A DNA stretch of 43,762 nt from contig SXRM01000087.1 of assembly GCA_005792545.1 (NCBI GenBank), forward strand, positions 1 to 43,762, in the 5' to 3' direction. The notes beneath the pieces are model-generated. The model did not search any database and was not told the origin of the DNA. It saw only the letters and a list, made by a program, of their open reading frames with translations. Below, piece by piece: positions 2,796 to 38,578 of the stretch. How positions within the stretch are numbered: the first letter of the stretch is position 1; every line of letters begins with the position of its first letter. Origin of the DNA: Pseudomonadota bacterium (GTDB lineage: Bacteria > Myxococcota_A > UBA9042). A program made the translations under genes and the position numbers.

Positions 2796-2798
2796 TCC

Positions 2799-6635: not shown

Positions 6636-6652
6636 CCACCGCCCTGTAGCGG

Positions 6653-9667: not shown

Positions 9668-9681
9668 GGGCTCGCAAAAAA

Positions 9682-10624: not shown

Positions 10625-10777
10625 CCCCAGTCGACCCCAGACCCCGCGACTGCCCCAGTACCAGAACGCCAACTGCGGCCGCCGTCGGTGGCCAGCGCGG
10701 GCTGCGGGCTGCGCGCGCGGCCGACGTTCCGTGCAGCTTTGCCGGCAGACCATGGACCGCGCGACCACGGTGGCCCT

Positions 10778-12820
10778 ATGCTTGCGCGCCTTCCGGCCCG
10801 GCCCGGCCCGACCAACGCCTTGACCGACCCCGCTCGCCCGCAACTGTCGCCCGACCGCTGGGTACTGGCCTGGTGGCTGCTTGTCGCTTTTTGCGCCGGC
10901 CTCGCGGTGTGGCCGCTGTGGGCCGGCCACTGGCTGCCGCTGCACGACGCCGCGCAGGTCGCGCACCAGGCGTCGGTCATCTGGGACTGGAACGTCGAAC
11001 CGGTGTTCCGCCGCGACTTTGTGCGCGCGCCGTTTCCGACCCCCAACTTCTTGGGCATCGCGCTGCTCACCGCCCTGGCCCCGTTGGGTGGTGTGCTGCT
11101 CGCCCATAAGGTGGTGCTGACTTTGTGCGTGCTCGGCGTCATTGCGGCGTCGGGCTGGCTCCTGCGCGCTGCCGGTCACAGCCGCTGGCTGCTGCTGGCT
11201 GCGCTGCCCTGGGCCTGGCACCAGGAGATGTACATTGGTCACCTGGCGCACAGCGTCGGACTGCCGCTGTTTTTGGCGGCGCTGGCGGCGCACCTGGGGC
11301 TAGTTCGCGCCCCCGGGCCTTGGCGGGCCCTGCTGGTCGCGCTGCTGATAGGCGTCCTGGCGATTACGCACCTGCTGCTGTGGGTTGTAGCGACGCTCAT
11401 GCTGCCCGTGCTCGGTTGCGCCAGTGGCTGGACGCCGGGGCGCTGGCGCGGGGCTGCCACCGGTCTAGTCCGCGACTTGGGGCTGGGCATGCCCGGCTGG
11501 GCGCTGGTGGTGCCGTGGTACATGCGCGACGTGGCGCCGACGGGGCATCTGGCCGAGCTTGCCGGCGAGTGGCGCCTGCCCATCGACAACCTGCGCACGG
11601 TGTTCGGCCAGATGTTCGATGTGTTCGCGCCGCGCGGTGGCGCGCTCGACAGCCTGCCGGACCTGCTGTTCAACCGGCCCGGCGACCTCATCAGCGCGCT
11701 GTGGTGCATCGGCATCGGGCTGTGGGTGCTGGCGACGATTCGGCAGCCCCGCGACGGCGCGCCAAGCCTGGGCTCGCGCTATCTGGCACTGGCGACCGGT
11801 GGGCTGGCCGTAGCGTTTTTCGTGTTTCCCGTCCACGTGTTTCGGCCCGTATGGATCCACGGCCTCGGCGGGCGGCTGGTGGCGCCGCTGCTGCTGGTGG
11901 CCGCGCTGGCCCTGCGCTTGGACCCGACGCGGCCGGCGCCCAATGCGAGGCTGCGCGCCTGGGCCGGCTCCGCGGCACTTCTGGCCGCCGCGGTGTGGCT
12001 GCCGATCTCGACCGTGCGCTCGGCGGTGCTGGTGCAGCCCGAATTCGACCACATGGCCGAGGCGCTGGCCACCATCCCGCGCGGCAAGGCGGTGCTGGTC
12101 CTGCGGCCGGATTTCGAGAGCCACTGGATGCAGATGCACATCTTTGCCGACGTCGGCCAGTACGCGGCGGTGCTGCGCGGCGCCGCCGTGCCACAGGTGT
12201 TCATCGACCCGGTACTGCAGCCGGTGCGCACCGCCGCCGGCCGCATTCGCCCCGCGCCGCCGGGCGACGACCATGAGCGCTTCAACTGGCACGATCACGG
12301 CCGCTACTACGACTACGTGGCACTGTTTCGCAATCCGTTCGCCGCCGAGCCGCGCTACGAGGCGCTGCTGCGCAGTTGGCCGCGCGTGTACCAGCGCGGC
12401 AAGTGGCAGGTGTTCCAGAACCTGCACCCCGAGTCGTGGCCGCCGCCGCCGCCGGCCGTCTCGCCGCCGCGCGACCCCGACGCCCAGATCGCCGAGTCGA
12501 TTGCCGACACCGTCGGGTCGATGATGGGCTTGGGCTGGACGCTGCCGTACGCGCTGGACCCCGAGTTGGTGCAGCGCGACGAGACGCTGCGCGCGATGCT
12601 CGGCCTGCCGTCGCGCAACCCAGGCGCCGACTTGCCAGCACCGCAAGCCGTCACCGAGACCGGGATGGAGCGGCAACTGGCGCCACTGCCCGAGCCGGTG
12701 ACGACCGATGTCGCTCCTGCGCCGTCGCCGCTGTTCGTGCCCAGGGCGCTGGCATTGCCGCCGTCGATCGTCGCGCCGGTGCCAGTCACCCCGCCGGTAC
12801 GCCCTGACCCGTCGCGGTAG
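10778..12820 (+). CDS. Multi-pass membrane protein
   Basis: Many hydrophobic segments over the first ~450 aa; proline-rich C-terminus. Confidence 0.7.
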   Translation: MLARLPARPGPTNALTDPARPQLSPDRWVLAWWLLVAFCAGLAVWPLWAGHWLPLHDAAQVAHQASVIWDWNVEPVFRRDFVRAPFPTPNFLGIALLTALAPLGGVLLAHKVVLTLCVLGVIAASGWLLRAAGHSRWLLLAALPWAWHQEMYIGHLAHSVGLPLFLAALAAHLGLVRAPGPWRALLVALLIGVLAITHLLLWVVATLMLPVLGCASGWTPGRWRGAATGLVRDLGLGMPGWALVVPWYMRDVAPTGHLAELAGEWRLPIDNLRTVFGQMFDVFAPRGGALDSLPDLLFNRPGDLISALWCIGIGLWVLATIRQPRDGAPSLGSRYLALATGGLAVAFFVFPVHVFRPVWIHGLGGRLVAPLLLVAALALRLDPTRPAPNARLRAWAGSAALLAAAVWLPISTVRSAVLVQPEFDHMAEALATIPRGKAVLVLRPDFESHWMQMHIFADVGQYAAVLRGAAVPQVFIDPVLQPVRTAAGRIRPAPPGDDHERFNWHDHGRYYDYVALFRNPFAAEPRYEALLRSWPRVYQRGKWQVFQNLHPESWPPPPPAVSPPRDPDAQIAESIADTVGSMMGLGWTLPYALDPELVQRDETLRAMLGLPSRNPGADLPAPQAVTETGMERQLAPLPEPVTTDVAPAPSPLFVPRALALPPSIVAPVPVTPPVRPDPSR

Positions 12821-22593: not shown

Positions 22594-24111
22594 ATGCGCT
22601 ACCTGTTTGCATGGATCGGAATTGCGGACCTCAAGTCGACCGGCGCAGCGGCAGGCGATTCTGTTGGCCCGATTGCACAGGCCCTAGATACGGGATGGTT
22701 TGACGCGGCCGTCCTGCTCGACGACCACGGCGCGGCCAAGTCTGGTCCGTGGCGGGCTTGGATTGCCAATCGCTTTCAAGGAGCGTTGTCGGTTTGCGAC
22801 GTCGCATTGGCAGGTCCGACTGATTTTGGCGACATCTACCGCGCTGCCGTGGCCGCTGTCTGTGACGTCGTCAGCGATGGGCGAGTGGCGACCAGCCACA
22901 ACCTGACGTTTCACTTGAGCCCAGGTACACCGGCGATGGCCGCTGTTTGGTTGCTCCTGGCAAAGGCTCGCTTTGGCGCATCGCTTATCGAGTCGTCACG
23001 CGACCACGGTGTTCGGCGAGTAGACGTACCTTTTGATATCGCGGCAGACTTTTTGCCGGACTTGCTTCGACAATCGGATCGTCGTCTGGCCGTCGGCGCT
23101 GCCGCGCAGTCCAGTGTCCTAGCCCAATTCGGCGACATCGTCTTCCGCGCCGAGTCGATGCAGCGCCTGGTCCAGCGCGCTCAAATGGCAGCCGTGCGTT
23201 CCGTGCCCGTACTCATTCTCGGTGAAACTGGGACCGGCAAAGAACTCCTTGCGCGCGCCATACACGCAGCTAGCCCTCGCTCAACCAAGCCCTTTGTGGC
23301 GGTGAATTGCGGAGCAATTCCAGCAGAGCTTGTCGATACCGAGCTTTTTGGCCACGAACGAGGCGCGTTCACCGGCGCCGTGCAGGCGTCAGCCGGCTTC
23401 TTTGAGCAGGCGCACTGTGGCACGCTCTTCTTGGACGAGCTTGGCGAACTGCCCTTGCACGCCCAGGTACGCCTGCTTCGGGTGCTGCAATCTGGCGAGG
23501 TACGCCGGGTCGGCGCGCGCGATGTGCGGCATGTCGACGTGCGTGTGATCGCAGCCACCCACCGCGACCTGCTGCAAGACGTGGCGGCCGGTCGATTTCG
23601 GGAGGACTTGTTCTTCAGGTTAGCTGTCGCGGTACTGCGGATTCCGCCCCTTCGCGACCGGCGGGGCGACGTGGGGCTGCTGGTCGACCGGCTTTGGATG
23701 CAGGTTTGCATCGAAGTGAAGGGCGATCCGAACTGGCTGGACAAGGAAATTTCTGTCCCCGCAAGAAATCGTCTGCTGGCGCACCAATGGCCCGGCAACG
23801 TCCGTGAACTGCTGAACACGCTACGCAGAGCCGCGTTGTGGTCAACTGGACCGGTCGTCACAGCCGAGGATGTTGAAGACGCACTGCTTTCGGTGCCAGC
23901 GTCCTCGGTGGGCGACGTTCTCAACCGCCCAATTGGAAACGGGTTCTCGCTCCCAGAGACCATCGCAGAGGTAGCGCGGCACTACCTTACACGCGCACTG
24001 AACGAGGCCTCAGGTAACAAGACCAGTGCTGCCGGACTAGTTGGGTTGGCAAGCTATCAAACCCTGACCAACTGGCTTGCGCGCTACGAAGTGACAACAG
24101 AAATGGAATGA
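22594..24111 (+). CDS. Sigma-54-dependent enhancer-binding activator with CARF-like N-terminal sensor domain (RtcR-like architecture)
   Basis: Walker A GETGTGKE, GAFTGA motif, Walker B GTLFLDELGELPLHAQVRLLRVLQ, Fis-like HTH C-terminus; N-terminus carries 'NLTFHLSPGTPAMAAVWLLLA', like the SxGTxxM loop of Csm6/CARF proteins. Confidence 0.9.
   Translation: MRYLFAWIGIADLKSTGAAAGDSVGPIAQALDTGWFDAAVLLDDHGAAKSGPWRAWIANRFQGALSVCDVALAGPTDFGDIYRAAVAAVCDVVSDGRVATSHNLTFHLSPGTPAMAAVWLLLAKARFGASLIESSRDHGVRRVDVPFDIAADFLPDLLRQSDRRLAVGAAAQSSVLAQFGDIVFRAESMQRLVQRAQMAAVRSVPVLILGETGTGKELLARAIHAASPRSTKPFVAVNCGAIPAELVDTELFGHERGAFTGAVQASAGFFEQAHCGTLFLDELGELPLHAQVRLLRVLQSGEVRRVGARDVRHVDVRVIAATHRDLLQDVAAGRFREDLFFRLAVAVLRIPPLRDRRGDVGLLVDRLWMQVCIEVKGDPNWLDKEISVPARNRLLAHQWPGNVRELLNTLRRAALWSTGPVVTAEDVEDALLSVPASSVGDVLNRPIGNGFSLPETIAEVARHYLTRALNEASGNKTSAAGLVGLASYQTLTNWLARYEVTTEME
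24037..24080. promoter_or_regulatory. Candidate upstream activator site with dyad symmetry
   Basis: AGTTGG (24039-24044)/CCAACT (24068-24073) and GCAAGC (24049-24054)/GCTTGC (24075-24080); 8-mers CTAGTTGG and GCAAGCTA recur at 24144-24156. Lies within coding sequence. Confidence 0.3.
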
Positions 24112-24153: not shown

Positions 24154-24169
24154 TGGCACGCCATTTGCA
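24154..24169 (+). promoter_or_regulatory. Sigma-54 (RpoN) promoter, -24/-12 elements
   Basis: TGGCACGCCATTTGCA fits the consensus TGGCACGNNNNTTGCW at every specified base, between the sigma-54 activator gene and hsdR. Confidence 0.88.
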
Positions 24170-24214: not shown

Positions 24215-27200
24215 ATGGCGACCCCCCGGTTGGACACAATGCCCCACGCTGCCGCAGAATCGCGTTCCCTGTCGCCCGAGGCGGTCGTGGCACTTTCGGT
24301 CCACTTTGAATTCCTGCGCAAGCGGCACCCCGACTTGGCCGATCTTGGCGGACTCGCGGAGCGGTACGCATCGGCAGATCCGCAGAGTGCGCTGCTCAAG
24401 TTGCGCACATTCGCAGAACGCGGCGTCGATGTGGTCTTTGCGGAGTACGCACTGCCGACGACGCTCGACGGCGGCAACCTCAATGACCGGCTAAATGCGC
24501 AGGTATTCCGGGATCTTGCGCCAACCGTAATCCTGGACAAATTGCACGTCTTGCGGCGCAGGGGCAATCGGGCTGCGCATGCGAATGAGGGCACGGCGGC
24601 AACGGCGATTGCCGCGTTGCGCGATGCCTTTGACGTCGGCCGGTGGCTGTATGCTTTCGTGGACGACGGCAACGTAGGCGGGATCAAGCCGTTTGACCCG
24701 GCGAGCTTGCCTGTCGAGGACTCAAAGACGCAGTTGCAGCGCGAGCGCAAGTCGCTGAGAGAACAACTGGCCCAGCAAGAGTTTCTTGTCACAGATCTGA
24801 TGCAACGTCTGGACGGTGAACGCGCCGCGCGTCAAAGTGCAGAAGCAACGGTCATCGAACTTGAGGAGTACCGGCAGCGTGCAACTGCGGCCGCAAGCAT
24901 TCTGCTGCTCAATGAGCGTGATACACGGCGGCAGCTCATCGACGTGATGCTGGCTGAAGCGGGATGGGACGTTGGGGCCAACGGCGCGGATTCGGCGCAG
25001 GTGCTGCAAGAGGTCAAGCTGTCTCTGGTGCCAGACGAAAATGGCAATGGATTTGCCGACTATGTCTTGTTGGGTGAGGACGGCAAAGCGCTGGCGGTCG
25101 TTGAGGCGAAACGGACAGCAAAGGACCCAGCGGCGGGCGCGACTCAAGCCTGGCTCTACGCCAACGCGCTGGAGCGAAAGTATGGCAAGCGGCCTGTGCG
25201 GTTTTGGACAAATGGCGTCGAGGTTTGGTTCTGTGATGACGTTGCACCGGCCAGCCAGCCGCGCAAGCTATTCGGGTTCTACAGCAAAGCGAGCTTGGAC
25301 TATGTCGTGTTTCAGCGCAGTCAGCACGCCGACGGGCAGCAGTTGATCGCTACGCCGACCAAGGACGTGATTTGCGACCGAATCTACCAGAAGGAGGCGA
25401 TCAAAGCAGTAGCCGAGAGCTTTGCCCTGGGTCACCGCAAAGCGCTGCTTGTACTGGCAACCGGCACGGGCAAAACCCGCGTCGTAGTGGCCATTGCCGA
25501 TGTGATGATGCGGGCCAACTGGGCCAAGCGCATCCTGTTCTTGTGCGACCGCAAGGAGTTGCGCAAGCAGGCCGACGAGGCGTTCAACGAATTCTTGCCC
25601 GACGCGCCGCGGGCCATAGTGTCGCGGGCTACCGCCGGAGACCGCGATCAGCGCATCTATATGGCCACCTATCCGGCTATGGATCGTTGCTACCGGGCCT
25701 TTGACGTCGGCTTTTTCGACTTGATCATCGCTGACGAGTCGCACCGCAGTATTTACAATCGCTACAGCGACTTGCTGAAGTGGTTCGACGCGATGCAGAT
25801 TGGTCTGACGGCAACGCCGCGCGAGGTCGTCAGCCACGACACGTTTGCCTTGTTTGGCTGCAACGGTCGCGATCCGACCTACGAGTACACGTACCAGCAG
25901 GCCATTGCCGCAGTCCCGCCGTATTTGGTGCCGTTTCGCGTGATCGCCCACACGACACAGTTCCTGCGCCAAGGGATTCGTTTTGCCGAACTGAGCGACG
26001 ACGACAAGCGCAAGTGGGAAGCGCAGGATCCCGACGCAGCGACCGGCGCGCTCGACGTTGCCCAGCAGAACCTCGACCGGCAGGTCCTAAGCGTCGACAC
26101 CACCCGCGTCATTCTGCGAAACCTGATGGAGCGCGGCATTCGCGACGCCAGCGGCAGCCGGCCCGGCAAGACCATCGTGTTTGCGCGCAGCCACGACCAC
26201 GCTGTGCTGCTCGCGCGGACGTTTGGCGACTTGTTCCCGCAGTACGGCGGCGATTTCTGTCAGGTCGTCGACAGCCACGATGAGCGCGCGGAGACCTTGT
26301 TGACGCGGTTCAAGGATCCGACCGACAACCTCACTGTTGCGATTTCCGTCGACATGCTCGACACCGGCGTGGACGTGCCGCAGGTGGTCAACCTGGTGTT
26401 TGCCAAGCCGTTGCGGTCATTCGTCAAGTTCTGGCAAATGATTGGTCGCGGCACGCGGCTGTGCCCCAACCTGTTCGGGCCGGGCAACGACAAGAAAGAG
26501 TTCCTGATTTTCGACCACTGGGGCAACTTCGAGTGGTTCGGGGTCGAGCGGCGCGAGACGGACGACCCGCCGCCGAAGTCGCTGTGCCAGCAGTTGTTCG
26601 AGGCGAGGCTGGAATTGGCGCACGCCGCGCTCGACCGCTTCGACCAGGCTGCCTTCGATAGTACAGCCGACCTGCTGCACGAGGATCTGGTTGCGCTAAA
26701 CCGCACGCGGTCGATTCGCGTCGTTGAGCGATTCCGCGACCTCAATCCGCTGTGCAACCGCCAGCGGGTTCAGCAGTTTGACGCCGCGACGGTGGCGCAA
26801 ATTCGGCTAGTTGCTGCGCCATTGATGGGTGAACTCGACGCCCGGAAGGACGAGCCGGCGCTCCGCTTTGACCTGCTGGTGGCGCAGACGCAATTGGCGG
26901 CCATCACGCAGGCACCTCGGCTGGCTACTTTGGCTGCGCGGGTGCAGGACGACGTCCAGCGATTGCCGAAGAATCTGGCGCCGGTCAAGGCGCAGGCGGC
27001 GACCATTCAGCAGGCGCGCGCGGCGGCGTTCTGGCAGGCGCCGACGTTTGGCGAGTTGGAAGCGGTGCGCGGCAACTTGCGCGGATTGTTGCAGTACAGG
27101 GTTGCGGCGGTGTCGACTCGGGCAGTGACAACGAAAGTTGTTGATTTTGTAGATGGCGATGAGATGCACGCCGAGATCGTGCCGACACTTGCCGGCCAAG

Positions 27201-27697
27201 AACTCGTGGCGTACCGGCAGCGGGTCAAAGAGGTGCTGGACCAGCGACTGGCTGGCGACCCGGCTATCGTCAAGATTCGCAATGGGCAAGCCGTGACAGA
27301 AGGTGAACTGGGCGGACTGGCGTTGCAAGTCCAGCGCATTGACCCGCTAATCGACCTACTGAAGTTGCCGCGGCAGTTGCACATGCACGTCGACTTGGCG
27401 CGCGTGCTGCGTGGCTTGGTGGGCTTGGACGCAAGCGCTGTCGAGACCGAATTCAAGGCGTTTACCAGCAAGTATCCAACGCTGACTGCGCAGCAATTGC
27501 AGTTCTTGCGCACGATTCAGCAGCACATTGCGCTAGGCGGTGGCCTGGAAATCGACCAGTTGTACCAGGACCCGTTTACGCGCCTGCATCCCGAGAGTGT
27601 CGACGGGATGTTCGGAGACGCCGCACAGGTTGACGACCTGCTCACCATTTTAGCGCGCTTCAATGCGGGCGAGTTGCCTGCCGAGCGCGCGGCCTAG
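24215..27697 (+). CDS. hsdR: Type I restriction endonuclease R subunit
   Basis: Nuclease core 'NGFADYVLLGEDGKALAVVEAKRTAKD', Walker A ATGTGKT, DESHRS, GLTATP; N-terminal DUF4145-like segment. Start 24215 or 24239; the longer ORF start at 24170 abuts the promoter. Confidence 0.93.
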   Translation: MATPRLDTMPHAAAESRSLSPEAVVALSVHFEFLRKRHPDLADLGGLAERYASADPQSALLKLRTFAERGVDVVFAEYALPTTLDGGNLNDRLNAQVFRDLAPTVILDKLHVLRRRGNRAAHANEGTAATAIAALRDAFDVGRWLYAFVDDGNVGGIKPFDPASLPVEDSKTQLQRERKSLREQLAQQEFLVTDLMQRLDGERAARQSAEATVIELEEYRQRATAAASILLLNERDTRRQLIDVMLAEAGWDVGANGADSAQVLQEVKLSLVPDENGNGFADYVLLGEDGKALAVVEAKRTAKDPAAGATQAWLYANALERKYGKRPVRFWTNGVEVWFCDDVAPASQPRKLFGFYSKASLDYVVFQRSQHADGQQLIATPTKDVICDRIYQKEAIKAVAESFALGHRKALLVLATGTGKTRVVVAIADVMMRANWAKRILFLCDRKELRKQADEAFNEFLPDAPRAIVSRATAGDRDQRIYMATYPAMDRCYRAFDVGFFDLIIADESHRSIYNRYSDLLKWFDAMQIGLTATPREVVSHDTFALFGCNGRDPTYEYTYQQAIAAVPPYLVPFRVIAHTTQFLRQGIRFAELSDDDKRKWEAQDPDAATGALDVAQQNLDRQVLSVDTTRVILRNLMERGIRDASGSRPGKTIVFARSHDHAVLLARTFGDLFPQYGGDFCQVVDSHDERAETLLTRFKDPTDNLTVAISVDMLDTGVDVPQVVNLVFAKPLRSFVKFWQMIGRGTRLCPNLFGPGNDKKEFLIFDHWGNFEWFGVERRETDDPPPKSLCQQLFEARLELAHAALDRFDQAAFDSTADLLHEDLVALNRTRSIRVVERFRDLNPLCNRQRVQQFDAATVAQIRLVAAPLMGELDARKDEPALRFDLLVAQTQLAAITQAPRLATLAARVQDDVQRLPKNLAPVKAQAATIQQARAAAFWQAPTFGELEAVRGNLRGLLQYRVAAVSTRAVTTKVVDFVDGDEMHAEIVPTLAGQELVAYRQRVKEVLDQRLAGDPAIVKIRNGQAVTEGELGGLALQVQRIDPLIDLLKLPRQLHMHVDLARVLRGLVGLDASAVETEFKAFTSKYPTLTAQQLQFLRTIQQHIALGGGLEIDQLYQDPFTRLHPESVDGMFGDAAQVDDLLTILARFNAGELPAERAA

Positions 27698-27704
27698 GAC
27701 CATC

Positions 27705-29222
27705 GTGATTACTACCCAAGCTAAGCAGCAGATCGACCAACTCTGGGATGCGTTCTGGACTGGCGGCATCAGCAACCCGTTGACGGTCATCGAGCAGGTC
27801 AGTTACCTGTTTTTCATGCGGCTGCTCGACATCACCGAGACCAACAATGAACGCGTGCAGCAGCGCACTGGCAAGGCCTTTCGTCGGTTGTACGATGGCG
27901 CTGACGATGTGCGGCGCTGGTCGGTGTTCAAGCACCAAAAGCCAGAAGAGATGCTGCGCACTGTGCGCGATGTCGTTTTCCCCCACCTGCGCGACAGCAT
28001 CGGAGCGCGGTCGACGATGGGCACGTACCTCAAGGACGCGCAGTTTGTGATTCCGACTCCCAACTTGTTGGCGCGGGCCGTCGAGTCGGTGGACCGGCTC
28101 AAGTTGGTCGGCGATGCCAAGGGCGACCTGTACGAGTACTTGCTGAGCCGGTTGTCGACCGCTGGCATCAACGGCCAGTTTCGCACGCCGCGGCATATCA
28201 TTCGGGCGATGGTCGAGGTGATGGAGCCCAAGCCGACAGAGGTTATCGGCGACCCGGCGTGTGGCACGGGTGGCTTTCTGGTCGGCACGATGGATTGGAT
28301 GCTGCAGCGGTACACGTCGGAGGCGGGCAAACTCAAAGACGAGGAGGGTGGCGAGCTCTACACCGGCGACTTGCTGCAGCCGCACCGCGAGCACGTGCAG
28401 AGCGGGATGCTGCACGGGTTTGATTTTGATTCGACGATGCTACGGATTGCGGCGATGAACTTGATGCTTCACGGGATCGAGACGCCCGATGTGCATTACG
28501 CCGATGCCCTATCCAAGGCCTTCGGCGAGAAGTTCAGCCAGCATCGCCACGGCTTTTTCGACGTCATCCTGGCCAATCCGCCGTTTAAGGGCAGCTTGGA
28601 TGCGACGACAGTGCATGCGTCGTTGTTGGCCAAGGTCAAGACCCGCAAGATGGAGTTGCTGTTCGTGGCGCTGATGCTGCAAATGCTCAAGGTTGGCGGC
28701 AGGTGTGCCACGATTGTGCCCGATGGCGTGCTGTTTGGTAGCTCCGGGGCGCACAAGGACTTGCGCAAGCTGCTGGTCGACGACAACCAGTTGGAGGCGG
28801 TGATTTCGCTGCCGGGCGGGGTGTTTCGGCCGTATGCGGGGGTGTCGACGGGGATTTTGGTGTTCGCGCGCGGGGGTAGGACGGGCGAGGTGTTTTACTA
28901 CGACGTGAGAGAAGACGGGTTTACGCGCGACGATAAGCGCACACCGCAGCCGGCGGGCACGAGTGACCTGCCGCGGATGGTCGAAGCGTGGCGGCAGTGG
29001 AAGGCGACTGGAAAGGTAGTGGGCGCGGACCGGAAAGCGCAGTGCTTCTTGGTGTCGGCGGAGGAGATCCGCGAGAAGGAGTACGACCTTGCGTTGAACC
29101 GGTATCAGGAGGTCGTGCACGAGAAAGTGCAGTACGAGAAGCCGGAGGTGATTTTGGAGCGGTTGATTGGGTTGCAGGGGGAGATTTTGAGGGAACTTGA
29201 GGGGTTGAGGGGGATCGCGTGA
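27705..29222 (+). CDS. hsdM: Type I DNA methyltransferase M subunit
   Basis: DPACGTGGFLVGTMD (motif I) and ILANPPFKG (NPPF motif IV); start GTG 27705. Confidence 0.94.
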   Translation: MITTQAKQQIDQLWDAFWTGGISNPLTVIEQVSYLFFMRLLDITETNNERVQQRTGKAFRRLYDGADDVRRWSVFKHQKPEEMLRTVRDVVFPHLRDSIGARSTMGTYLKDAQFVIPTPNLLARAVESVDRLKLVGDAKGDLYEYLLSRLSTAGINGQFRTPRHIIRAMVEVMEPKPTEVIGDPACGTGGFLVGTMDWMLQRYTSEAGKLKDEEGGELYTGDLLQPHREHVQSGMLHGFDFDSTMLRIAAMNLMLHGIETPDVHYADALSKAFGEKFSQHRHGFFDVILANPPFKGSLDATTVHASLLAKVKTRKMELLFVALMLQMLKVGGRCATIVPDGVLFGSSGAHKDLRKLLVDDNQLEAVISLPGGVFRPYAGVSTGILVFARGGRTGEVFYYDVREDGFTRDDKRTPQPAGTSDLPRMVEAWRQWKATGKVVGADRKAQCFLVSAEEIREKEYDLALNRYQEVVHEKVQYEKPEVILERLIGLQGEILRELEGLRGIA

Positions 29223-30358
29223 ACGTACGAAGCCTCGGCCAAGTTGCGGACATTGAGCGCGACGGTGTTGACCCAAATGCCCTGGTGGAAGGCACGCCCT
29301 ATTTGGGCATGGAAAACGTCACAAGCGACGGCGAGTTGGTCGACGTGCGCACCGTTGCGGCGGGCGAGCTGGACTCTGCGAAATTCACCTTCGGTCCCGA
29401 ACACATCCTCTTTGGCAAGCTTCGACCCTACTTGAAGAAAATCGCTCAGCCTGGCTTTGCTGGGATTTGCAGCACGGAACTCGTACCAATCAGGCCCAAG
29501 TCCGGGATAACTACCAGATATCTTTATCATTTTTTGCGCTGGCAAAAGACAGTTGATTGGGCGACAAGCCTATGCGCCGGCGCGAACCTGCCCCGCCTAA
29601 ACCCAAGTATGCTTGCAACGTTGCCTGTTCCGGTGCCAGAGCTCGCGGTTCAGGAAGCATTCGCCACCACCCTCGACCACCTCGACTCCGTCCGCCGCAA
29701 ACAACGCCAGGCCCTCGCGCTCATCGACGAGCTTGTGCGGGCGACGTTTTTGGAGATGTTTGGGGATCCGGTGGCGAATCCACGACGCTGGGGCGTTGCC
29801 CGCCTCGGAGAAGTCGGAGTTCTCGATCGCGGGAAGTCGCAGCATCGGCCACGCAACGACCCGGCCCTGCTCGGCGGCGCCCATCCGCTCATTCAGACAG
29901 GCGAAGTAGCGAATTCAGAAGGAGAAATCACAACCTTTACACAGACGTACTCAGATCTTGGGCTTGCTCAAAGCCGGATTTGGCCCGCCGGAACGCTGTG
30001 CATCACGATCGCAGCGACGATCGCCAAGACCGGTGTTCTGAAGTTCGACGCCTGCTTTCCAGATAGCGTCGTTGGCTTCCGACCGGCCGAGCGAGCGACT
30101 ACGGAATTCGTCCAAGCCTGGTTGTTCTTTCTGCAGCCCATCATCGAGGCACGGGCGCCGCAGGTTGCGCAGAGGAACATCAACCTTGAGATTCTGCGCG
30201 AGCTTGAACTGCCGGTGCCGCCAATTGAAATGCAAAGACAATTCGCGCGACATGTCATGGCGATCCGGGAGGCAAAGCGCAGGCTGCTCTCACTTACCGA
30301 TTCCGCCGAAGCCCTCTTCGCCAGCCTGCAAGATAGGGCATTCGCCGGTAGCCTGTAG
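29219..30358 (+). CDS. hsdS: Type I specificity subunit S
   Basis: Two target-recognition regions separated by 'QEAFATTLDHLDSVRRKQRQALALIDELVRATFLEMFGDP'; GTGA overlap with hsdM. Confidence 0.92.
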   Translation: MNVRSLGQVADIERDGVDPNALVEGTPYLGMENVTSDGELVDVRTVAAGELDSAKFTFGPEHILFGKLRPYLKKIAQPGFAGICSTELVPIRPKSGITTRYLYHFLRWQKTVDWATSLCAGANLPRLNPSMLATLPVPVPELAVQEAFATTLDHLDSVRRKQRQALALIDELVRATFLEMFGDPVANPRRWGVARLGEVGVLDRGKSQHRPRNDPALLGGAHPLIQTGEVANSEGEITTFTQTYSDLGLAQSRIWPAGTLCITIAATIAKTGVLKFDACFPDSVVGFRPAERATTEFVQAWLFFLQPIIEARAPQVAQRNINLEILRELELPVPPIEMQRQFARHVMAIREAKRRLLSLTDSAEALFASLQDRAFAGSL

Positions 30359-30366: not shown

Positions 30367-30777
30367 ATGCCAGCGCTGCGCCAATATCGCATCTTCATCA
30401 GCCACGCCTGGGCCTACAACGACCACTACCACTCGCTGGTCGGGTGGTTCAACAACGCGGCGAACTTCTGGTGGTTCGACCACTCCGTGCCTGAACACGA
30501 CCCGCTCCAGGTCAACTCCGACACCGCGCTGCGGCGCAAGTTGGACGATCAAATCAAGGGCTGCCACGCCGTGGTCATCATGGGCGGCATGTATGTCAAC
30601 TACCGACGCTGGATTCAAGCCGAAATCGACCTCGCGTTGCGGTACAACAAGCCCATCATCGTCGTCAGGCCTTGGGGGTCGCAGGTGCTGCCGAAGGTTC
30701 TCCAAGATGTGGCGCACGAAATCGTCGCCTGGCAATCTGCCAATGTGATCGACGCCATCAGGAGCCACGCGCTGTGA
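30367..30777 (+). CDS. TIR-like (DUF1863/MTH538, ThsB-like) protein
   Basis: 'YRIFISHAWAYNDHYHSLVGWFN...VVIMGGMYVNYRRWIQAEIDLALRYNKPIIVVRPWG'; candidate catalytic Glu in WIQAEID. Confidence 0.85.
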   Translation: MPALRQYRIFISHAWAYNDHYHSLVGWFNNAANFWWFDHSVPEHDPLQVNSDTALRRKLDDQIKGCHAVVIMGGMYVNYRRWIQAEIDLALRYNKPIIVVRPWGSQVLPKVLQDVAHEIVAWQSANVIDAIRSHAL

Positions 30778-31226
30778 CCGAGCAGGTGGACCAGCAAGCT
30801 TGGGACCGCCAATCCCGGCTGGAGCAGTACAAGCTCTGCGTCGAGATGGCCGACCGTGTGTCGCAACGGCGCATGGTCGCCAACACATTGTTCGCCACGC
30901 TGACGACATCCATCATCGGCGCGTTGGTAGTATTGGGCAGCAAGCCGGAAGCGCGATCGTTCGAGGTCGGGCTCTGCCTCGTCGGCATCTTGCTGGCGGC
31001 CGCGTGGCGCGTTCATGTGGTGCACTCGCAACGGCTCAATTCGGCAAAATTCCAAGTGATCCAAAAGATAGAGTTGGAACTGCCATGTCAGCCCTTCGCC
31101 GAAGAGTGGACGCTGGTGCGAACCCATCCCGCGGGCTACATCGGCCACAGCCGAATCGAGGCATGGGTGCCTGTCGTTGCGGCTCTCGTTTTTGCTGGGA
31201 TTCTATTGACATTGGCCAAGTTCTAA
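30774..31226 (+). CDS. Small two-TM membrane protein (SLATT/RipA-like)
   Basis: 'LEQYKLCVEMADRVSQRRMVANTLFATLTTSIIGALVVLG', 'RQLNSAKFQVI'-type motif (SQRLNSAKFQVIQKIELELP); GTGA overlap with the TIR gene. Confidence 0.7.
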   Translation: MTEQVDQQAWDRQSRLEQYKLCVEMADRVSQRRMVANTLFATLTTSIIGALVVLGSKPEARSFEVGLCLVGILLAAAWRVHVVHSQRLNSAKFQVIQKIELELPCQPFAEEWTLVRTHPAGYIGHSRIEAWVPVVAALVFAGILLTLAKF

Positions 31227-31247: not shown

Positions 31248-33167
31248 ATGCTCGAAGATCTCGTCGAATCCCATGACTTTGAAGCCAAGCTCGCCCACGG
31301 TCGCGATGGTCAAGGCGAGGTGCCGCGTTCGCTGTGGGAGACCTACTCGGCATTCGCCAACACCGACGGCGGCGTGATTCTGCTCGGCGTTCACGACAAC
31401 CACGGCAATCTTACGCCTGCTGGCCTCGGCAACCCGCAACGCCTAGTCGACCACTTGTGGAGCGATGTCAACAACAGATCCTGTATCAGCGCCAACCTGT
31501 TGCGCAATCAGGACGTCTCGATTCATGACGAGAATGGCCTCGCGCTGGTCCGCGTCCTGGTGCCTCGCGCAGCCCGCGCGAGCCGGCCGGTGTACGTCGG
31601 CGCGAACCCGCTAGATGGCACTTATCGTCGCCGCGGCTCGGCCGACCAAAAGTGCTCGGCAGAAGAAGTGCGGCGGATGCTGGCAGAGCAAGTGGAGGCA
31701 AGCCGCGACGAGCGCATCTGCGTCGGCCTGCACGTGCACGACCTCAATGAGGCGACGGTTCGACGCTACCGCCAGCGGTTCCAGGCCCACGCGCCCGGCC
31801 ACCCGTGGAACAACGTGGACGACCATGAGTTCCTGCGCAGCATCGGCGCCTGGCGGCGAGACCGCGAAACTGGCAATGCCGGCGTGACGCTGGGCGGGTT
31901 ACTGATGTTCGGGCAACAGTCCGACATCATCGACGAATTTCCCAATTACTTCCTGGATTACCAGGAGCGTGCCGAAGCGCGGACGGAACTTCGCTGGGTC
32001 GACCGCGTTTGGTTGGATGGGACATGGTCCGGCAATCTCTATGATTTCTACACCATCGTCACTGGCAAACTTGGTGAGGGTATCGGTGCCGGTTGGCAAC
32101 TGCGCGGCGACCAGCGGATTGACGATTCTGCGGTGCATCAAGCGCTGCGAGAAGCGTTGGTCAACACCTTGATCCATGCCGACTTCACCGGGCGCACCTC
32201 TATCCTGGTGGTCAAGCGGCCAGACCTGTTCGGCTTTCGTAACCCGGGTGCGTTTCGCGTGCCGTTGGCGGATGCGCAGCGCGGCGGCGACTCCGACTGC
32301 AGAAACCGGCGGCTGCAAGGCATGTTCCGGTTCGTCGGCTTTGGCGATCAGGCGGGTGCCGGATTGCCCAAGATTCTCGACGCTTGGCGCGGGCACCAGT
32401 GGCGGCTGCCAAAGTGGACCGAACTCGTGGGTCCGAATGAGCAGACGCAGTTGGAGCTGCCGCGGGCAAGTCTGCTGAGTCCCAAAACCGTTACCGCTTT
32501 GCGAGAGCAGCACGGCCTCCAGTTCGACAAGCTGCCGCCGGCAGAGCGGTTGGCGTTGGCGCTGGCGGTCGAGGAAGGCGAGGTCACCCACACCCGGCTG
32601 ACGGCCATGTCCGGCGAGCATTCGCGCGATGCAACCTTGGCGCTGCAGCATTTGGTCCAGCGCGGCCTGCTCGCAGCGGTCGACAGGCGGCGTCCAGTCA
32701 CCTATGTGGTTGCCGAGCACGCACTTCAGGGCAAGAAGACGATTCAAGTGAGCTTGTTCGCCGACGCTGGTAGCGACGCTGCGGGTGTTGAAGCGAACTT
32801 GCCCGGTAAGACAGCGAGCATGCATGAAGAGGCCGCTACCATGCATGCTGTCGACGTGACCATGCATGCACCGGCCGAAAACGTGCAAGCTCCACTTTTG
32901 GGCCAATGTAGAACAACGCAAGGCGATCGCAGGCGCAGCAAGAGCGAGGGCTTGCAGGCGGCAGTTGTTGCAGCATGCATGGTGGCTTGGCGGACAGTGG
33001 CGGAAATCGCAGCCGCGGTGGGGCGTACACCGAACCATTTGCGCAATGGCGTGATTCCGGGCCTGCTGGGCCAGGGCCTGTTGGTGGCGCGATTTCCCAA
33101 CGCGGCGCGGCACCCACGGCAGGCTTATCGGGCGGCGGGGTCGAAAGCTGTTGGAGAGAACGAATGA
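31248..33167 (+). CDS. AlbA_2/Schlafen-like ATP-binding protein (RecG-C/HATPase_c_4 type)
   Basis: 'ETYSAFANTDGGVILLGVHD' AlbA_2 motif; 'ALREALVNTLIHADFTGRTSILVV...FRNPG' C-terminal domain motif. Confidence 0.85.
   Translation: MLEDLVESHDFEAKLAHGRDGQGEVPRSLWETYSAFANTDGGVILLGVHDNHGNLTPAGLGNPQRLVDHLWSDVNNRSCISANLLRNQDVSIHDENGLALVRVLVPRAARASRPVYVGANPLDGTYRRRGSADQKCSAEEVRRMLAEQVEASRDERICVGLHVHDLNEATVRRYRQRFQAHAPGHPWNNVDDHEFLRSIGAWRRDRETGNAGVTLGGLLMFGQQSDIIDEFPNYFLDYQERAEARTELRWVDRVWLDGTWSGNLYDFYTIVTGKLGEGIGAGWQLRGDQRIDDSAVHQALREALVNTLIHADFTGRTSILVVKRPDLFGFRNPGAFRVPLADAQRGGDSDCRNRRLQGMFRFVGFGDQAGAGLPKILDAWRGHQWRLPKWTELVGPNEQTQLELPRASLLSPKTVTALREQHGLQFDKLPPAERLALALAVEEGEVTHTRLTAMSGEHSRDATLALQHLVQRGLLAAVDRRRPVTYVVAEHALQGKKTIQVSLFADAGSDAAGVEANLPGKTASMHEEAATMHAVDVTMHAPAENVQAPLLGQCRTTQGDRRRSKSEGLQAAVVAACMVAWRTVAEIAAAVGRTPNHLRNGVIPGLLGQGLLVARFPNAARHPRQAYRAAGSKAVGENE
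32820..32882 (+). repeat. Three 21-bp in-frame repeats (ATGCATN15)
   Basis: ATGCAT at 32820, 32841 and 32862, encoding a 7-aa period (MHEEAAT/MHAVDVT/MHAPAEN). Confidence 0.75.
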
Positions 33168-34735
33168 TTACAGGGATCTCTATTGAGAACTTCAAGGTCT
33201 TTCGCAAGCGCATTGACCTTGAGCTCGCGCCAATCACGCTGCTTTTCGGCCGTAACAGTGCCGGCAAGAGCACGGTCCTGCAAGCCCTTGGCTATGCGCG
33301 GGAAATGGTCGTTCACGGCAACGCAACTGCGACGCACGATGAGTGCGGCGGATTCCGCAATGTGTTGCCCGGCCAAGGCGGCCCGACCGAGATTGCCATT
33401 GGTCTGCGGACGCGCCCAACAAACGCCCAACTACTTCAGCACTTTGCCAGCTTCGGGGGCAGTGTCGACGAAGGCCTCGCTTCGCGCATTCGCGACATCG
33501 GACTTGAAGTCTGCGGCAAGTGGGATCTGGAGGAGCGCCCGCATGTGGGCCGCTGGGCGCTCACCGCCGACGGCGGCTACGTGGTGCGCATAGAGACGCA
33601 GCCAAACCGCGAGCCAATCTTGTGGACCGATTTCGCGACGCAATGGCTGTCGCACGCGGTGCGAGAGAACCTGGTGCCGAGTTTGCGGCCGGCAGCAGAT
33701 AGGCCGGACTTCGGCGTCTGGAAGCATTTGCACCCTAAGTTGAGCAACGACGTCCGCGCCTACTACTGCATGCCAGGTCGCAAGTCGGCGCTGCCGGTCG
33801 CGGGCCTCGGTCTCGACATGGCCGGAGTCGACAACGACCCGCTGGCGGCCGAGGCGGCGACAGAGGTCGATCACCTCGTCTTGGGCTCACGGAGCCTGTT
33901 TTCGCAGTATTTGACGGGTATTCGCCATGTGGGCCCAATACGCGTCGTTCCACCGCGCGGCCTTGTCGATCATGGCTGGCCCACTTCGGCCGGTTGGTAC
34001 GATGGCAGCGCTGCTTGGGCATTGCTGCAACGACAGCCAAAGTTCGCGACACATCACGTGGGGCCAGCATTGACCATGGCCCAAACAGGCCACGGTTTGC
34101 GTGCACTCGAGGTTGCGTTGACGCGGGATCCTGTTGGCTTGGCAACAGCAATCGGTCTCGAAATCCGCGACGGACTCAACGAGGACTGGCTAGCTGGCGT
34201 TGCGGACAACCTTGCCGCAACCGAGAGGCATGTTTTGCTCGAGATCACTAGCCTTGGCGGTACGCGAACGGCGCATCCAAAGGACGTGGGCGTGGGCGTT
34301 TCTCAACTAATCCCTGTAATTGCCGCTGCGCTGTCGCGCGCCGACCCGCTTGCAGACGGCGGTGAGTTGCCTATCGGCTTGGTCGCTATCGAACAGCCAG
34401 AACTGCACGTTCACCCAGCAGTTCAGTCGGAAATCGCCGACTTGTTCGTCGAGACCATCCACGACCTCGACACAGGCGAGTTGTCAGGTCGCCAATACCT
34501 CATCGAAACCCACAGCGAGCACTTGGTCCTCCGGCTCCTCCGCCGTATCCGCGAAACCACCGAAAACCCAGATGTGCCCATCGACCGCCGCCTCCGTCCC
34601 GAAGACATCGCCATCTACTACTTCGACAACGTCGACGGCGAGGTCAAGGTCACCCGTATCGGCGTTGACGAAGACGGCGAATTCACCGACAAGTGGCCCC
34701 ATGGATTCTTCCCCGAACGCTTGAAGGAACTCTAG
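33164..34735 (+). CDS. AAA family ATPase (DUF3696/OLD-like)
   Basis: FGRNSAGKST Walker A, 'GLVAIEQPELHVHPAVQSEIADLFV' Walker B, 'WPHGFFPERLKEL' DUF3696-like end; ATGA overlap with previous gene. Confidence 0.88.
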   Translation: MITGISIENFKVFRKRIDLELAPITLLFGRNSAGKSTVLQALGYAREMVVHGNATATHDECGGFRNVLPGQGGPTEIAIGLRTRPTNAQLLQHFASFGGSVDEGLASRIRDIGLEVCGKWDLEERPHVGRWALTADGGYVVRIETQPNREPILWTDFATQWLSHAVRENLVPSLRPAADRPDFGVWKHLHPKLSNDVRAYYCMPGRKSALPVAGLGLDMAGVDNDPLAAEAATEVDHLVLGSRSLFSQYLTGIRHVGPIRVVPPRGLVDHGWPTSAGWYDGSAAWALLQRQPKFATHHVGPALTMAQTGHGLRALEVALTRDPVGLATAIGLEIRDGLNEDWLAGVADNLAATERHVLLEITSLGGTRTAHPKDVGVGVSQLIPVIAAALSRADPLADGGELPIGLVAIEQPELHVHPAVQSEIADLFVETIHDLDTGELSGRQYLIETHSEHLVLRLLRRIRETTENPDVPIDRRLRPEDIAIYYFDNVDGEVKVTRIGVDEDGEFTDKWPHGFFPERLKEL

Positions 34736-34737
34736 AA

Positions 34738-35685
34738 GTGATCCACGAATTCGCAGTCGATCCAGCGCTCTTGCCGAAATGGCGCGGCCGCAGCTCGTTT
34801 GACTACTGGCGAAGCGCGTTTGGCCTTGGCCAACCGAGGGTTGTCTCAGCGCACCCGACCGCAAAGGCCTGGCGCAAACTTGTTCGCAAAGCGCTGAGCG
34901 ATGCGGCCCCGACGTTGGAAGGCCTGGACCAGGCTCGGGTCGAGGGCCTAGTCAAGCTGCTGACCGAAGAACAGCCGCTGGTCGACCGCGCCGACCAAAA
35001 CCGGATTATTGAATTGGGCGGCTGGCTCGAAAGCGCTTTGGCCGCTCACAGACCACAACCATTTCAAGGTGTCTTGACACATCGCGAGGATCGGGCAGAG
35101 GCGGCTATCTTACAAGCCACAGACCACCCGCCGGAGGGCCCAGCGTGGCAGTTGCCATCGACAGGGCCTGTGGCGCGCAACGCAGCCGATCTCGTTGCCC
35201 GGCTTTCTCCGATGCTGCGCGCCGCGCGCCAACTCGTCATTGTGGATCCCTACATTGACTACCACAATCGACGATTTTCACAACCACTTTTGGCGCTGAT
35301 GGATGCACACGCAGTGGGCGGCAGCGACGGCGTGCGAATTGTCCACGGCGAGATCTCGAATCGCGAAAAGCCTCTTACCGCCGAAGTACATGAAGCACGG
35401 TTTCAAAGGCCTGCCAATCAATGGGTGCCCTCGTTTCGAGACGAACTACCGGCGGGACTTGGTGTTCAAGTCGCGGTCGTCGAACAGCAATCCGGCGGCG
35501 AGCGCTTGCACGAACGATTTGTGTTAACTGAGCTTGGTGGCGTGGGCATTCCTGGCGGCATCGACAACGGTGATCCCGGCGAAACAACGCCGACAAACTT
35601 GCTCAGCGAAGCAGATTGGGCGCACCAGTGGCGGTGCTACGGTGATCCGTTGGCGTTTAGGGTCTTGCGACGGTGGACGCGCTGA
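34738..35685 (+). CDS. PLD-like phosphodiesterase-fold protein (degenerate HxK)
   Basis: 'RQLVIVDPYIDYHNRRFSQPLLALM' and 'ERLHERFVLTELGGVGIPGGID'; GTG start 2 nt after the AAA stop. Confidence 0.6.
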   Translation: MIHEFAVDPALLPKWRGRSSFDYWRSAFGLGQPRVVSAHPTAKAWRKLVRKALSDAAPTLEGLDQARVEGLVKLLTEEQPLVDRADQNRIIELGGWLESALAAHRPQPFQGVLTHREDRAEAAILQATDHPPEGPAWQLPSTGPVARNAADLVARLSPMLRAARQLVIVDPYIDYHNRRFSQPLLALMDAHAVGGSDGVRIVHGEISNREKPLTAEVHEARFQRPANQWVPSFRDELPAGLGVQVAVVEQQSGGERLHERFVLTELGGVGIPGGIDNGDPGETTPTNLLSEADWAHQWRCYGDPLAFRVLRRWTR

Positions 35686-35708: not shown

Positions 35709-36866
35709 ATGAAGGCAAGCGAAGTAATTGAGGTGGATGCGGCCGGCCGCTCGTGGACTGTCGCCGTTGCTAGCGGGCGCAAGCACCCCGCCTTGGTCCT
35801 CGCGCCCCACGACGACGACCACCGACGGTTCTGGAAGGCGATCCAGAGCACCGAAAGAGCGAGGTACAAGGAGACGGACCATTGGATTGCAACTTTCACG
35901 TTTTCAACGCCCGCAGGACAGGCTGAGCGGACTGGAGAGGTCTGGTTCAACAGCGGCTCTGCCAACTTGGATTCCGAAACGGCTGCAGCATTTGCGCGTG
36001 CCCAAGGCAGCCTTCCCGCCCTCAACCTCAAAATCACCCTCCTGCGCCGAACCGACGCCTCTGCGGCCGCCTATGCCGAGCAACAAGCCCAAGCAGAGCG
36101 CCAGCGACTTGCACGGGTCGCCAAGTTCACGGCCACCGCAGGCACGGCCATGCCCGCAAGACCTCCCGCGGCGGTCGCGCCTGCCGCGCCCGACTCGCCG
36201 ATCTCTTTCGCCATGCTCGATGACGTCCTCCGCGCAATGCGCACCGAATTCGACCGCGACATCCGCGCCCCCGCCGACAACCGGCGCCGTGGCACTTTCG
36301 GGATCGGCTGGCGCGAGGCCGTTGCAGGCCACGACTATGGCGAAAAAGCGCTGGTCGAACTCACCTGGCAAAACCTGGGCTACCGTCTGGGCCAGAAGTT
36401 GGGTGAACTGCCTGATCCTGCAATCGAAACGGCATTTGAGTACTGCGCAGCACACTTCGCGCCGCCAGTGCCGCCGATTGCCCGCGAAGCAGACGTCCCC
36501 GAAGAAGTGGAAGACGACGCGCTTGACGTCGACCCCGCCGCCGCCATTGAGGGTGCAGCTAAGACCGTGATGCAAACCCGGTACGAACGCAGCCCGCACA
36601 ACCGCGCCGCTTGCCTTTCCTACCACGGCCACGCGTGTGCCTGTTGTGGCGTGGACTTCGGCAAGTCGTTCCCGTGCGTCGCCGCTGCGCAGGGCTTTAT
36701 CCACGTACACCACTTGCGCCCGCTTGCGCTGGTGGGCGGCGCCCATGGAATTGATCCGGTCGCTGACCTGGTTCCGCTGTGCCCGAATTGCCACGCTGTC
36801 GCACACATGGGCCGCCCAGCGCCGTATTCCCTCGAAGAGTTGCGGCGGTTGCGGTGCTCCGAGTAG
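35709..36866 (+). CDS. HNH endonuclease with uncharacterised N-terminal region
   Basis: CACC...FIHVHHLRPLALVGGAHGIDPVADLVPLCPNCHAVAH. GTG 35673 is an alternative start. Confidence 0.88.
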   Translation: MKASEVIEVDAAGRSWTVAVASGRKHPALVLAPHDDDHRRFWKAIQSTERARYKETDHWIATFTFSTPAGQAERTGEVWFNSGSANLDSETAAAFARAQGSLPALNLKITLLRRTDASAAAYAEQQAQAERQRLARVAKFTATAGTAMPARPPAAVAPAAPDSPISFAMLDDVLRAMRTEFDRDIRAPADNRRRGTFGIGWREAVAGHDYGEKALVELTWQNLGYRLGQKLGELPDPAIETAFEYCAAHFAPPVPPIAREADVPEEVEDDALDVDPAAAIEGAAKTVMQTRYERSPHNRAACLSYHGHACACCGVDFGKSFPCVAAAQGFIHVHHLRPLALVGGAHGIDPVADLVPLCPNCHAVAHMGRPAPYSLEELRRLRCSE

Positions 36867-36945: not shown

Positions 36946-37926
36946 ATGACAAGTGCCTTCCAAGAAACGGCCCGCCACCACCAAATCGCGCTCCACCGCA
37001 CCCGCCCAGACCTATTCGACCACACCCCGACCGGCGGCCGCTTCCTCGGCAAGCCCCGCGATTTCGTCCTGCGCGACGGCGCCGCCAACCTGCACCCGTC
37101 GATTCGCGCCGACGTGCTCGCCTATTTCGCCGCCAACCGCATCCAGTGGTGGGGCGGCGCGGGCCCGAGCGGGCACCTGCTGTCGTCGCAGATTGCGTGC
37201 CTCAACCACCTTTACCCGCTGCGCAATGACGCCTTGGGGGCCAGAGAAGCGCTGCGCCGCCTTGACCCCGGTTTCGTGGAGGCATTGCCAGTCCCTTGCG
37301 ACACGGACTCCGGGTACATCGCGTTTGAGGCCACCAGCGACGTCGATCGCCTCACCGACGGCACGGTCCAACGCGGCGCCAACAATACCTCGCTCGACGC
37401 TGTGATGCTGGGCCGGCGCAGCAATGGCCAGCGGGTGCTGGTCGCCATCGAGTGGAAGTACACTGAGCACTACGACGACACCGACAAATCCGCGCAAGGC
37501 CCGGCGTCGGCAGGCGCGCAACCCAAAGGTCAAGTGCGCCGAGCACGCTATGACCATCTGATCGCGGCAAGTGGCCAACTGCGCGGCGACGTGCCCGACG
37601 ACCTCTACCGAGAGCCCTTCTACCAACTGATGCGGCAAACGCTGCTGCTCGAGCAACTGGTCGAGCACCGGCAAACGGAGTGCCTTGGCACCGACGAATT
37701 CCTGCATGTGCACGCAATCCCGCCCGACAACGCCGCATTGCTCGACAAAGCCTACCTGCCGCACGGCCTGGGCCTGGAGGCGCACTGGAATCAGGTGCTT
37801 GCCGATCCCGCGCGCTACCGCGTAATCGATGCCCACGATTGGCTGTTGGGCGGCGACGGGGCGCCAATCGGCGGGCCGGCTGCCGCATATCTGGCCGCAC
37901 GGTACTGGCCGACAGCGCCGGGCTGA
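36946..37926 (+). CDS. PGN_0703-like PD-(D/E)XK restriction-endonuclease-fold protein
   Basis: 'LLSSQIACLNHLYPL', 'NNTSLDAVMLGRRSNGQRVLVAIEWKYTEHYD' (D...ExK), 'FLHVHAIPPDNAALLDK'. Confidence 0.75.
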   Translation: MTSAFQETARHHQIALHRTRPDLFDHTPTGGRFLGKPRDFVLRDGAANLHPSIRADVLAYFAANRIQWWGGAGPSGHLLSSQIACLNHLYPLRNDALGAREALRRLDPGFVEALPVPCDTDSGYIAFEATSDVDRLTDGTVQRGANNTSLDAVMLGRRSNGQRVLVAIEWKYTEHYDDTDKSAQGPASAGAQPKGQVRRARYDHLIAASGQLRGDVPDDLYREPFYQLMRQTLLLEQLVEHRQTECLGTDEFLHVHAIPPDNAALLDKAYLPHGLGLEAHWNQVLADPARYRVIDAHDWLLGGDGAPIGGPAAAYLAARYWPTAPG

Positions 37927-38006: not shown

Positions 38007-38258
38007 ATGAGCACCCTCACACGCATCACCGTTACCGCCCCAGCCCAAGCGATCGCAGACCTCGATGCCGTCTGCGACCGCGTCAGCGCATCACGCAGCG
38101 CGCTGGTGGCACGCGCCATTGCCGAATTCCTCGATCGCAACCGTGACGCCGACCTGGATGCCGCCTACACGGCGGCCTATCTGCGGCAACCAGAAAGCAG
38201 CGCTGCCAATGCGGCTGTAGCTGCCGCTGCGACCGCAGCCTGGGATGCCTGGCCATGA
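38007..38258 (+). CDS. Ribbon-helix-helix antitoxin (CopG/MazE-like)
   Basis: 'TRITVTAPAQAIADLDAVCDRVSASRSALVARAIAEFLD' RHH; overlaps toxin start. Confidence 0.8.
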   Translation: MSTLTRITVTAPAQAIADLDAVCDRVSASRSALVARAIAEFLDRNRDADLDAAYTAAYLRQPESSAANAAVAAAATAAWDAWP

Positions 38259-38578
38259 AGCGCGGAGAGGTCTGGTGGGCCAATCTGCCGCCGCCTGCTG
38301 GCCGCAGGCCGGTGGTGCTGCTGTCGCGCGACGCTGCCTATGCCGTGCGCAGTTCGGTAACGATCGCGGAGGTTTCCTCCACGATCCGTCTGATTCCTTC
38401 CGAGCTTGCGTTGGGGCCAGCTGACGGCCTGCCGCGGGCATGCGTGGCCAACGCCGACAACCTGGTCACGATCCCAAAGGCGTGGTTGGATGGCCGTATC
38501 GCGGCGCTGTCGCCGGCCAAACTGGCGGCGGTCGAGGCCGCCATCCAGTTTGCGCTAGCCCTGCCCTCGGGGCATTGA
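38255..38578 (+). CDS. MazF-family toxin (PemK-like)
   Basis: 'MKRGEVWWANLPPPAGRRPVVLLSRD' and 'ACVANADNLVTIPKAWLDGRIAALSPAKLAAVEAAI'; ATGA overlap. Confidence 0.9.
   Translation: MKRGEVWWANLPPPAGRRPVVLLSRDAAYAVRSSVTIAEVSSTIRLIPSELALGPADGLPRACVANADNLVTIPKAWLDGRIAALSPAKLAAVEAAIQFALALPSGH

Follow-up and report, generated by a model that had tools for sequence, protein, structure and literature searches.

A DUF3696 ATPase and an HxR PLD-like protein form a candidate portable effector pair at the end of a type I restriction-modification operon under probable RtcR-like/sigma-54 control

RtcR-like proteins near restriction-modification (R-M) systems were noted earlier (Makarova 2014, PMC4012209), and superoperons that join RtcR and type I R-M with other effectors were described in the CoCoNuT paper (PMC11090510). 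In these superoperons, a 5' gene for an RtcR-like CARF-AAA-HTH protein is followed by co-directional hsdRMS genes and then by extra effectors. The same layout was found in the window, the whole 43,762-nucleotide stretch of DNA that was analyzed (contig SXRM01000087.1, forward strand). However, CoCoNuT consists of McrBC-like proteins with HEPN, whereas the effectors here are an ATPase and a PLD-like protein with an HxR motif, and this ATPase-PLD pair, unlike the CoCoNuT superoperons, was also found without R-M and beside CRISPR and pAgo. The RtcR/R-M superoperons are known already, but the literature searched, which did not include the Menshen polymorphism paper (PMC12065111), has no account of this effector pair or of its portability.

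Septu (PtuAB), the PtuA-PtuB proteins of retron Ec78 and PARIS (AriAB) likewise combine an SMC/OLD-like ABC ATPase with a nuclease, or putative nuclease, encoded by a separate gene. In these systems PtuB is an HNH protein and AriB is a TOPRIM-like effector, whereas the partner in the window is PLD-like and tied to RtcR and R-M; in PADLOC it matched none of PtuB, AriB and GajB, the partners that define Septu, PARIS and Gabija. The ATPase also resembles NsnB of Menshen (NsnA/B/C) and has DUF3696, and the NsnC model (305 positions) is similar in length to the partner. Menshen includes a DUF262 component (PMC10952713). The window genes scanned included no DUF262 protein, and of the Menshen set (DUF262 protein, NsnB and NsnC) the locus held an NsnB-like ATPase only. 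NsnC was rejected as the identity of the partner, as NsnC-type proteins lack the VDP and HxR motifs and the hhalign probability was 0.2%. The PADLOC systems HEC-03 and PDC-M55 likewise have a related ATPase adjoining a one-gene effector. PDC-M55B, which is TOPRIM-like by eye, was also rejected (hhalign probability, 0.1%), and HEC-03A, which is PIN-like by eye, was set aside. The preliminary description of a candidate defense pair belonging to no named system was therefore borne out: the partner had no convincing Pfam or PADLOC match and no detectable homology with NsnC or PDC-M55B.

MADS and DISARM are likewise methyltransferase-linked defenses; MADS has MAD3, an AAA ATPase, and DISARM has DrmC, a PLD nuclease. 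In contrast, the window had no DrmA or DrmB and contained a complete hsdR instead. The MAD3 model matched residues 1 to 56 only, with 26.6 bits against a cut-off of 420, and a complete hsdRMS set stood in place of a MADS system. That unrelated immune systems can take up one two-gene effector time and again has been described for a portable nuclease-protease pair (Science 2025, PMC12799240); that pair is an MBL nuclease activated by a trypsin-like protease, whereas here an ATPase is paired with a PLD-like protein.

The preliminary description dealt with the ATPase and its partner and overlooked the larger unit: a type I R-M operon under RtcR-like/sigma-54 control, which starts about 10 kb upstream of the pair and has it as its tail. 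All features of the operon are on the + strand. The first gene (22594 to 24111) encodes a 505-aa RtcR-like regulator with a CARF-like N terminus, a sigma-54 AAA+ domain (PF00158, 1.4e-67) and a Fis HTH (HTH_8); its ATG start at 22594 was picked from the starts of homologues. The sigma-54 (-24/-12) promoter TGGCACGCCATTTGCA (24154 to 24169) lies 43 nt past the stop of this gene. It is followed by hsdR, the type I restriction subunit (24239 to 27697; PADLOC REase_I, 1.3e-248; ResIII, EcoEI_R_C and HSDR_N), whose ATG at 24239 is downstream of the promoter in an open reading frame that opens earlier, at GTG 24170. With the methyltransferase hsdM (27663 to 29222; PADLOC MTase_I, 8.4e-163) and the specificity subunit hsdS (29219 to 30358; PADLOC Specificity_I, 4.4e-74), the window contains a complete type I R-M system. 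Between hsdS and the pair are optional inserts: a TIR protein (ThsB_TIR; 30367 to 30777; PF08937, 1.2e-17), an 8xMP membrane protein (30774 to 31226; PF24838, 1.4e-32) with a GTG start that overlaps the TIR stop, and an AlbA_2/Schlafen + HATPase_c_4 protein (31248 to 33167; PF04326, 4.8e-9) that overlaps the ATPase gene by 4 nt. The ATPase (33164 to 34735) and its partner (34738 to 35685) then follow on the same strand, spaced by 2 nt as first described. From hsdR to the PLD-like gene, the spacing consists of overlaps or gaps of no more than 21 nt. An HNH endonuclease gene (35709 to 36866; PF01844, 7.5e-5) begins 23 nt after the PLD-like gene and is possibly co-transcribed with it; no HNH relative was found in the other loci, and the gene is not a conserved part of the operon.

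The hsdS-ATPase junction is an insertion point for additional genes. The TIR-8xMP-AlbA_2 insert of the window was shared with the same-family locus L077 only. The TIR (ThsB-type) and 8xMP genes (30367 to 31226) overlap by GTGA, the couple is kept with AlbA_2 in L077, and the two look like a TIR + membrane effector pair of their own. In L077 (5916 to 7865), HsdM is apparently fused to an HsdS-like C-terminal part, and a separate hsdS was not detectable. Extra junction genes were also seen in L015, L030, L033 (between hsdS and the ATPase gene), L038 and L035 (weakly GIY-YIG-like, DUF4917/SIR2-like and DUF5655). Farther downstream in the window, a REase-ARP nuclease gene (36946 to 37926; PF22558, 6.6e-36) adjoins the HNH gene, two genes past the PLD-like gene, and is followed by an RHH/PemK toxin-antitoxin pair (38007 to 38578).

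The best NCBIfam model for the RtcR-like protein was RtcR (NF038308, E 3e-91), and the match spanned residues 123 to 540 (numbered from GTG 22429), taking in part of the N-terminal region. With a CARF domain, a sigma-54 AAA domain and an HTH, the protein belongs to the RtcR family. However, it is not the RtcR equivalog that regulates rtcBA, as it scored 307 bits against a cut-off of 650 and its gene sits on hsdRMS. PF06956 matched the RtcR-like relatives in L012 and L054, and the window copy had no match to it at an E value of 0.01. The genome carries rpoN, and its only such CARF domain is that of the RtcR-like gene. Full-length RtcR-like relatives (45 to 54% identical) adjoin other copies of the pair loci; because the search of the R-M-linked genomes also gave many unrelated sigma-54 activators, near-full-length matches at the locus coordinates were kept. 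The RtcR-like gene adjoins hsdR in L011 (divergent), L013, L017, L026, L048, L078 and L079, and also in L031 and L032, as read from coordinates. In L044 and L057, it is not upstream but immediately follows the PLD-like gene, in convergent orientation on the opposite strand.

The promoter in the window is a perfect -24/-12 element between the RtcR-like gene and hsdR and the sole exact match to TGGCACN5TTGC in the window. Sites of at least 13/15 were found within 150 nt past the RtcR-like stop in 15 of 18 loci, compared with 0.7% of random 150-nt stretches (binomial P about 5e-30, without correction for relatedness). The sites differ in position and occur across different phyla; a convincing site was absent in L027, L050 and L054. 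In L010 and, as judged from coordinates, in 16 other genomes, the gene immediately before hsdR encodes a WYL-domain regulator. It takes the place of the RtcR-like regulator in alphaproteobacterial operons, with two of the 16 genomes being from other groups, and the switch between the two regulators is one change on the tree. The CARF domain of RtcR binds 5' tRNA halves with a 2',3'-cyclic phosphate, after which sigma-54 transcription is activated (PMC7790460), and RtcR CARF domains mostly lack the usual ligand-binding K/R (Makarova 2014, PMC4012209). By analogy with RtcR, a sensor that responds to broken RNA appears to turn on the operon in the window.

In about 85,000 species genomes, scanning with four alignment rows turned up 52 loci; the complete set of nine rows was too diverse to serve as the query. 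An intact ATPase gene was directly upstream of the PLD-like gene on the same strand in each of the 49 non-redundant loci that have the two genes, with the stop and start mostly overlapping. The exceptions (L008, L049, L051, L055 and L059) were contig edges and remnants. The idea of a pair was to be given up if the two genes were rarely adjacent elsewhere; they adjoin each other, far more often than chance would allow, in essentially all loci that retain the two, and the ATPase-PLD pair is near-obligate. Phage records gave no matches, and only three plasmid records had matches. Tandem duplications of the pair were seen in L022, L028, L050 and L054 (Acidobacteria/Vicinamibacteria).

Type I R-M was directly before the pair in 31 of the 49 loci, always on the same strand and with the hsdS side toward the pair, often within about 20 nt; the hsdR-hsdM-hsdS order was judged as far as the contigs extend. 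All four IMG/VR contigs that matched had the R-M arrangement (4/4). On the ATPase+PLD tree, which covers the 49 non-redundant loci, R-M linkage took 6 changes, compared with 14.8 when the labels were shuffled, and a single clade was R-M-linked in 27 of 28 rows. Since the starred branches force at least four changes, the linkage was gained or lost several times.

In eleven loci, the pair was found with an RtcR-like gene and without R-M. In L062 (Oscillochloris, 1 to 9530), the pair is located between type III-D RAMP genes (Csx10 and Csx7) and a CRISPR-associated gene of the CARF-type TIGR02619 family. In L009 (a Deinococcus plasmid, 6138 to 10897), a 585-aa Piwi/Argonaute-like protein is encoded directly before the pair, which may represent a new type of pAgo effector. 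One locus each showed the CRISPR and the pAgo context. None of these sensors was directly upstream of the pair in five loci (L034, L039, L052, L057 and L080). Downstream of the pair in L080 (1295 to 5254) is a gene for a 1319-aa HIT + PLD (HxK type) + helicase protein, which recalls HsdR/SauUSI-type restriction helicases.

It was considered that the ATPase and the PLD-like nuclease may act alone, as in Septu or PARIS, the R-M, RtcR, CRISPR and pAgo genes being co-regulated neighbors in an island. The RtcR-only loci, the five loci without a recognized sensor and the duplications, which comprise the pair alone, are consistent with such autonomy. However, in the 31 R-M loci the pair keeps its strand, its side and often its close spacing to hsdS, and random island neighbors would vary in both side and strand. 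Together with the phylogenetically stable R-M linkage of the one clade, this makes an autonomous pair rather improbable.

The ATPase (523 aa, ATG start) is of the SMC/OLD-like ABC type and carries DUF3696 as its tail. It matched PF13175 (AAA_15, E 2.7e-22), PF13304 (AAA_21, 2e-16) and PF12476 (DUF3696, 5.3e-7) in Pfam and PDC-M55A (8.7e-42), NsnB (3.7e-41) and HEC-03B (8.8e-29) in PADLOC. The Walker A motif (GxNxxGKS), the glutamate (E410) of the Walker-B-like EQPE and the ETHSEH switch are invariant across 27 ATPase relatives. The AF2 model (pLDDT 83.5) matched JetC, the SMC and Rad50 heads, retron ATPases, PtuA and GajA in Foldseek. Domain search, conservation and fold matches revealed no TOPRIM domain, so the protein is not an OLD nuclease, in which the ABC ATPase is fused to TOPRIM; the preliminary description of an OLD-like DUF3696 ATPase holds for the ATPase part only. 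Related DUF3696 ATPases have other partners, namely PIN-like (HEC-03A), TOPRIM-like (PDC-M55B) and NsnC proteins. It seems that effectors are exchanged within the ATPase family, and sensors within its ATPase-PLD version.

The partner (315 aa, GTG start) contains the strings VDPYID and LHERFVLTELGGVGIPGGID, to which attention had been drawn at the outset. Its N-terminal domain (residues 1 to 139; 34738 to 35154) is mostly helical and has the motif M-x-x-E-Y-A-[VI]-[ED]-P, and its C-terminal PLD-like domain (residues 140 to 315; 35155 to 35685) has H-x-R-x4-[DE]. Neither the partner nor any of the 49 relatives scanned had a convincing Pfam or PADLOC match, no PADLOC match among the 50 members exceeded the chance level, the partner and three relatives had no NCBIfam match, and a PDB sequence search with the PLD-like profile returned chance matches only. 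An AF2 model built from 48 sequences (pLDDT 87.5, pTM 0.86) placed the partner in the PLD superfamily, as had been suspected from the letters: the best PDB matches in Foldseek were Streptomyces PLD, Moritella PLD, TrmBL2, SauUSI, MITD1, PLD3 and PS synthase (prob 0.9 to 1.0), with low TM-scores against the PLDs (about 0.3 of the query, roughly the PLD half).

The replacement of HxK by HxR is a property of the family and not a local oddity, as both the histidine and the arginine were present in 50/50 homologues. Instead of the catalytic HKD motif, HxK(x)4D, the family has HxR(x)4[D/E], the lysine being absent in 50/50. D170 (35245), H258 (35509), R260 (35515) and G274 (35557) never vary among the 50 homologues, and position 265, that of the HKD aspartate (E265 in the window, 35530), is D or E in 48/50 (40 D and 8 E). 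That relatives sharing about 20 to 37% identity with the window protein retain these residues speaks for an active or binding site. We infer that the partner may be a nuclease and go no further, because the HKD lysine is always arginine. With this substitution throughout, and with the non-catalytic TrmBL2 and MITD1 high among the closest folds, the partner could be a binding protein, a catalytically dead nucleic-acid sensor or adaptor for the ATPase, while HsdR, HNH or TIR does the killing or cutting. We regard this as unlikely: the histidine, the arginine, the acidic residue and the downstream glycine are kept at 96 to 100% even where identity falls to about 20%, a pattern that favors an active site, and the RtcR-only loci have no other recognized nuclease in the immediate gene set.

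It is very doubtful that the pair is a guard which stays silent with intact HsdRMS and fires only once the type I enzyme is blocked by a phage anti-restriction protein, for although EcoprrI/PrrC is a precedent and the pair has a fixed place at the 3' end of hsdRMS operons, no anticodon-nuclease domain was found and the RtcR-only, CRISPR and pAgo contexts would be left unexplained.

The order of an RtcR-like activator, a sigma-54 promoter, hsdR-hsdM-hsdS, the ATPase and the HxR PLD-like protein points, with reasonable though not high probability, to an inducible, layered restriction operon with a plug-in ATPase-PLD second-line effector, portable to RtcR-only, type III-D CRISPR and pAgo loci. 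In such an operon, infection or nucleic-acid damage would produce RNA ends (in RtcR, by analogy, tRNA halves with a 2',3'-cyclic phosphate) that may be bound by the CARF domain, and, once bound, the RtcR-like activator would have E-sigma54 transcribe the complete operon, after which HsdRMS, the type I enzyme, would attack unmodified DNA. The ATPase probably binds DNA ends or stalled or cleaved DNA, like the SMC, Rad50 and PtuA heads, and would hold and license its PLD-like partner. The activated partner, with H258 and R260 paired across a dimer, may cut nucleic acid as a second-line or abortive effector. Judged by the company it keeps in different genomes, the pair has the look of a reusable module, for killing or cutting, on which various immune systems can draw.

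More speculatively, the pair may be a general-purpose cassette fed by unrelated recognizers of nucleic acid (type I R-M, type III-D CRISPR, pAgo and the RNA-end-sensing RtcR), and the R-M operon, methylase included, may be silenced through sigma-54 control and serve as a suicide switch and not a standing barrier. Should hsdM stay silent until induction, the chromosome of the host would be unmethylated, and induction would be suicidal because the cell would restrict its own DNA; a basal promoter for hsdM, if present, would remove this consequence.

These results assign a two-gene effector, the second protein of which is covered by no Pfam, NCBIfam or PADLOC model, to a definite position as the last part of regulated restriction operons and also to a role as an interchangeable output of several immune systems. 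The R-for-K PLD family provides material for testing whether HxR supports catalysis. Two questions become testable: what the RtcR-like CARF regulators beside R-M systems turn on, and whether the genome of a cell with an inducible R-M operon stays unmethylated before induction.
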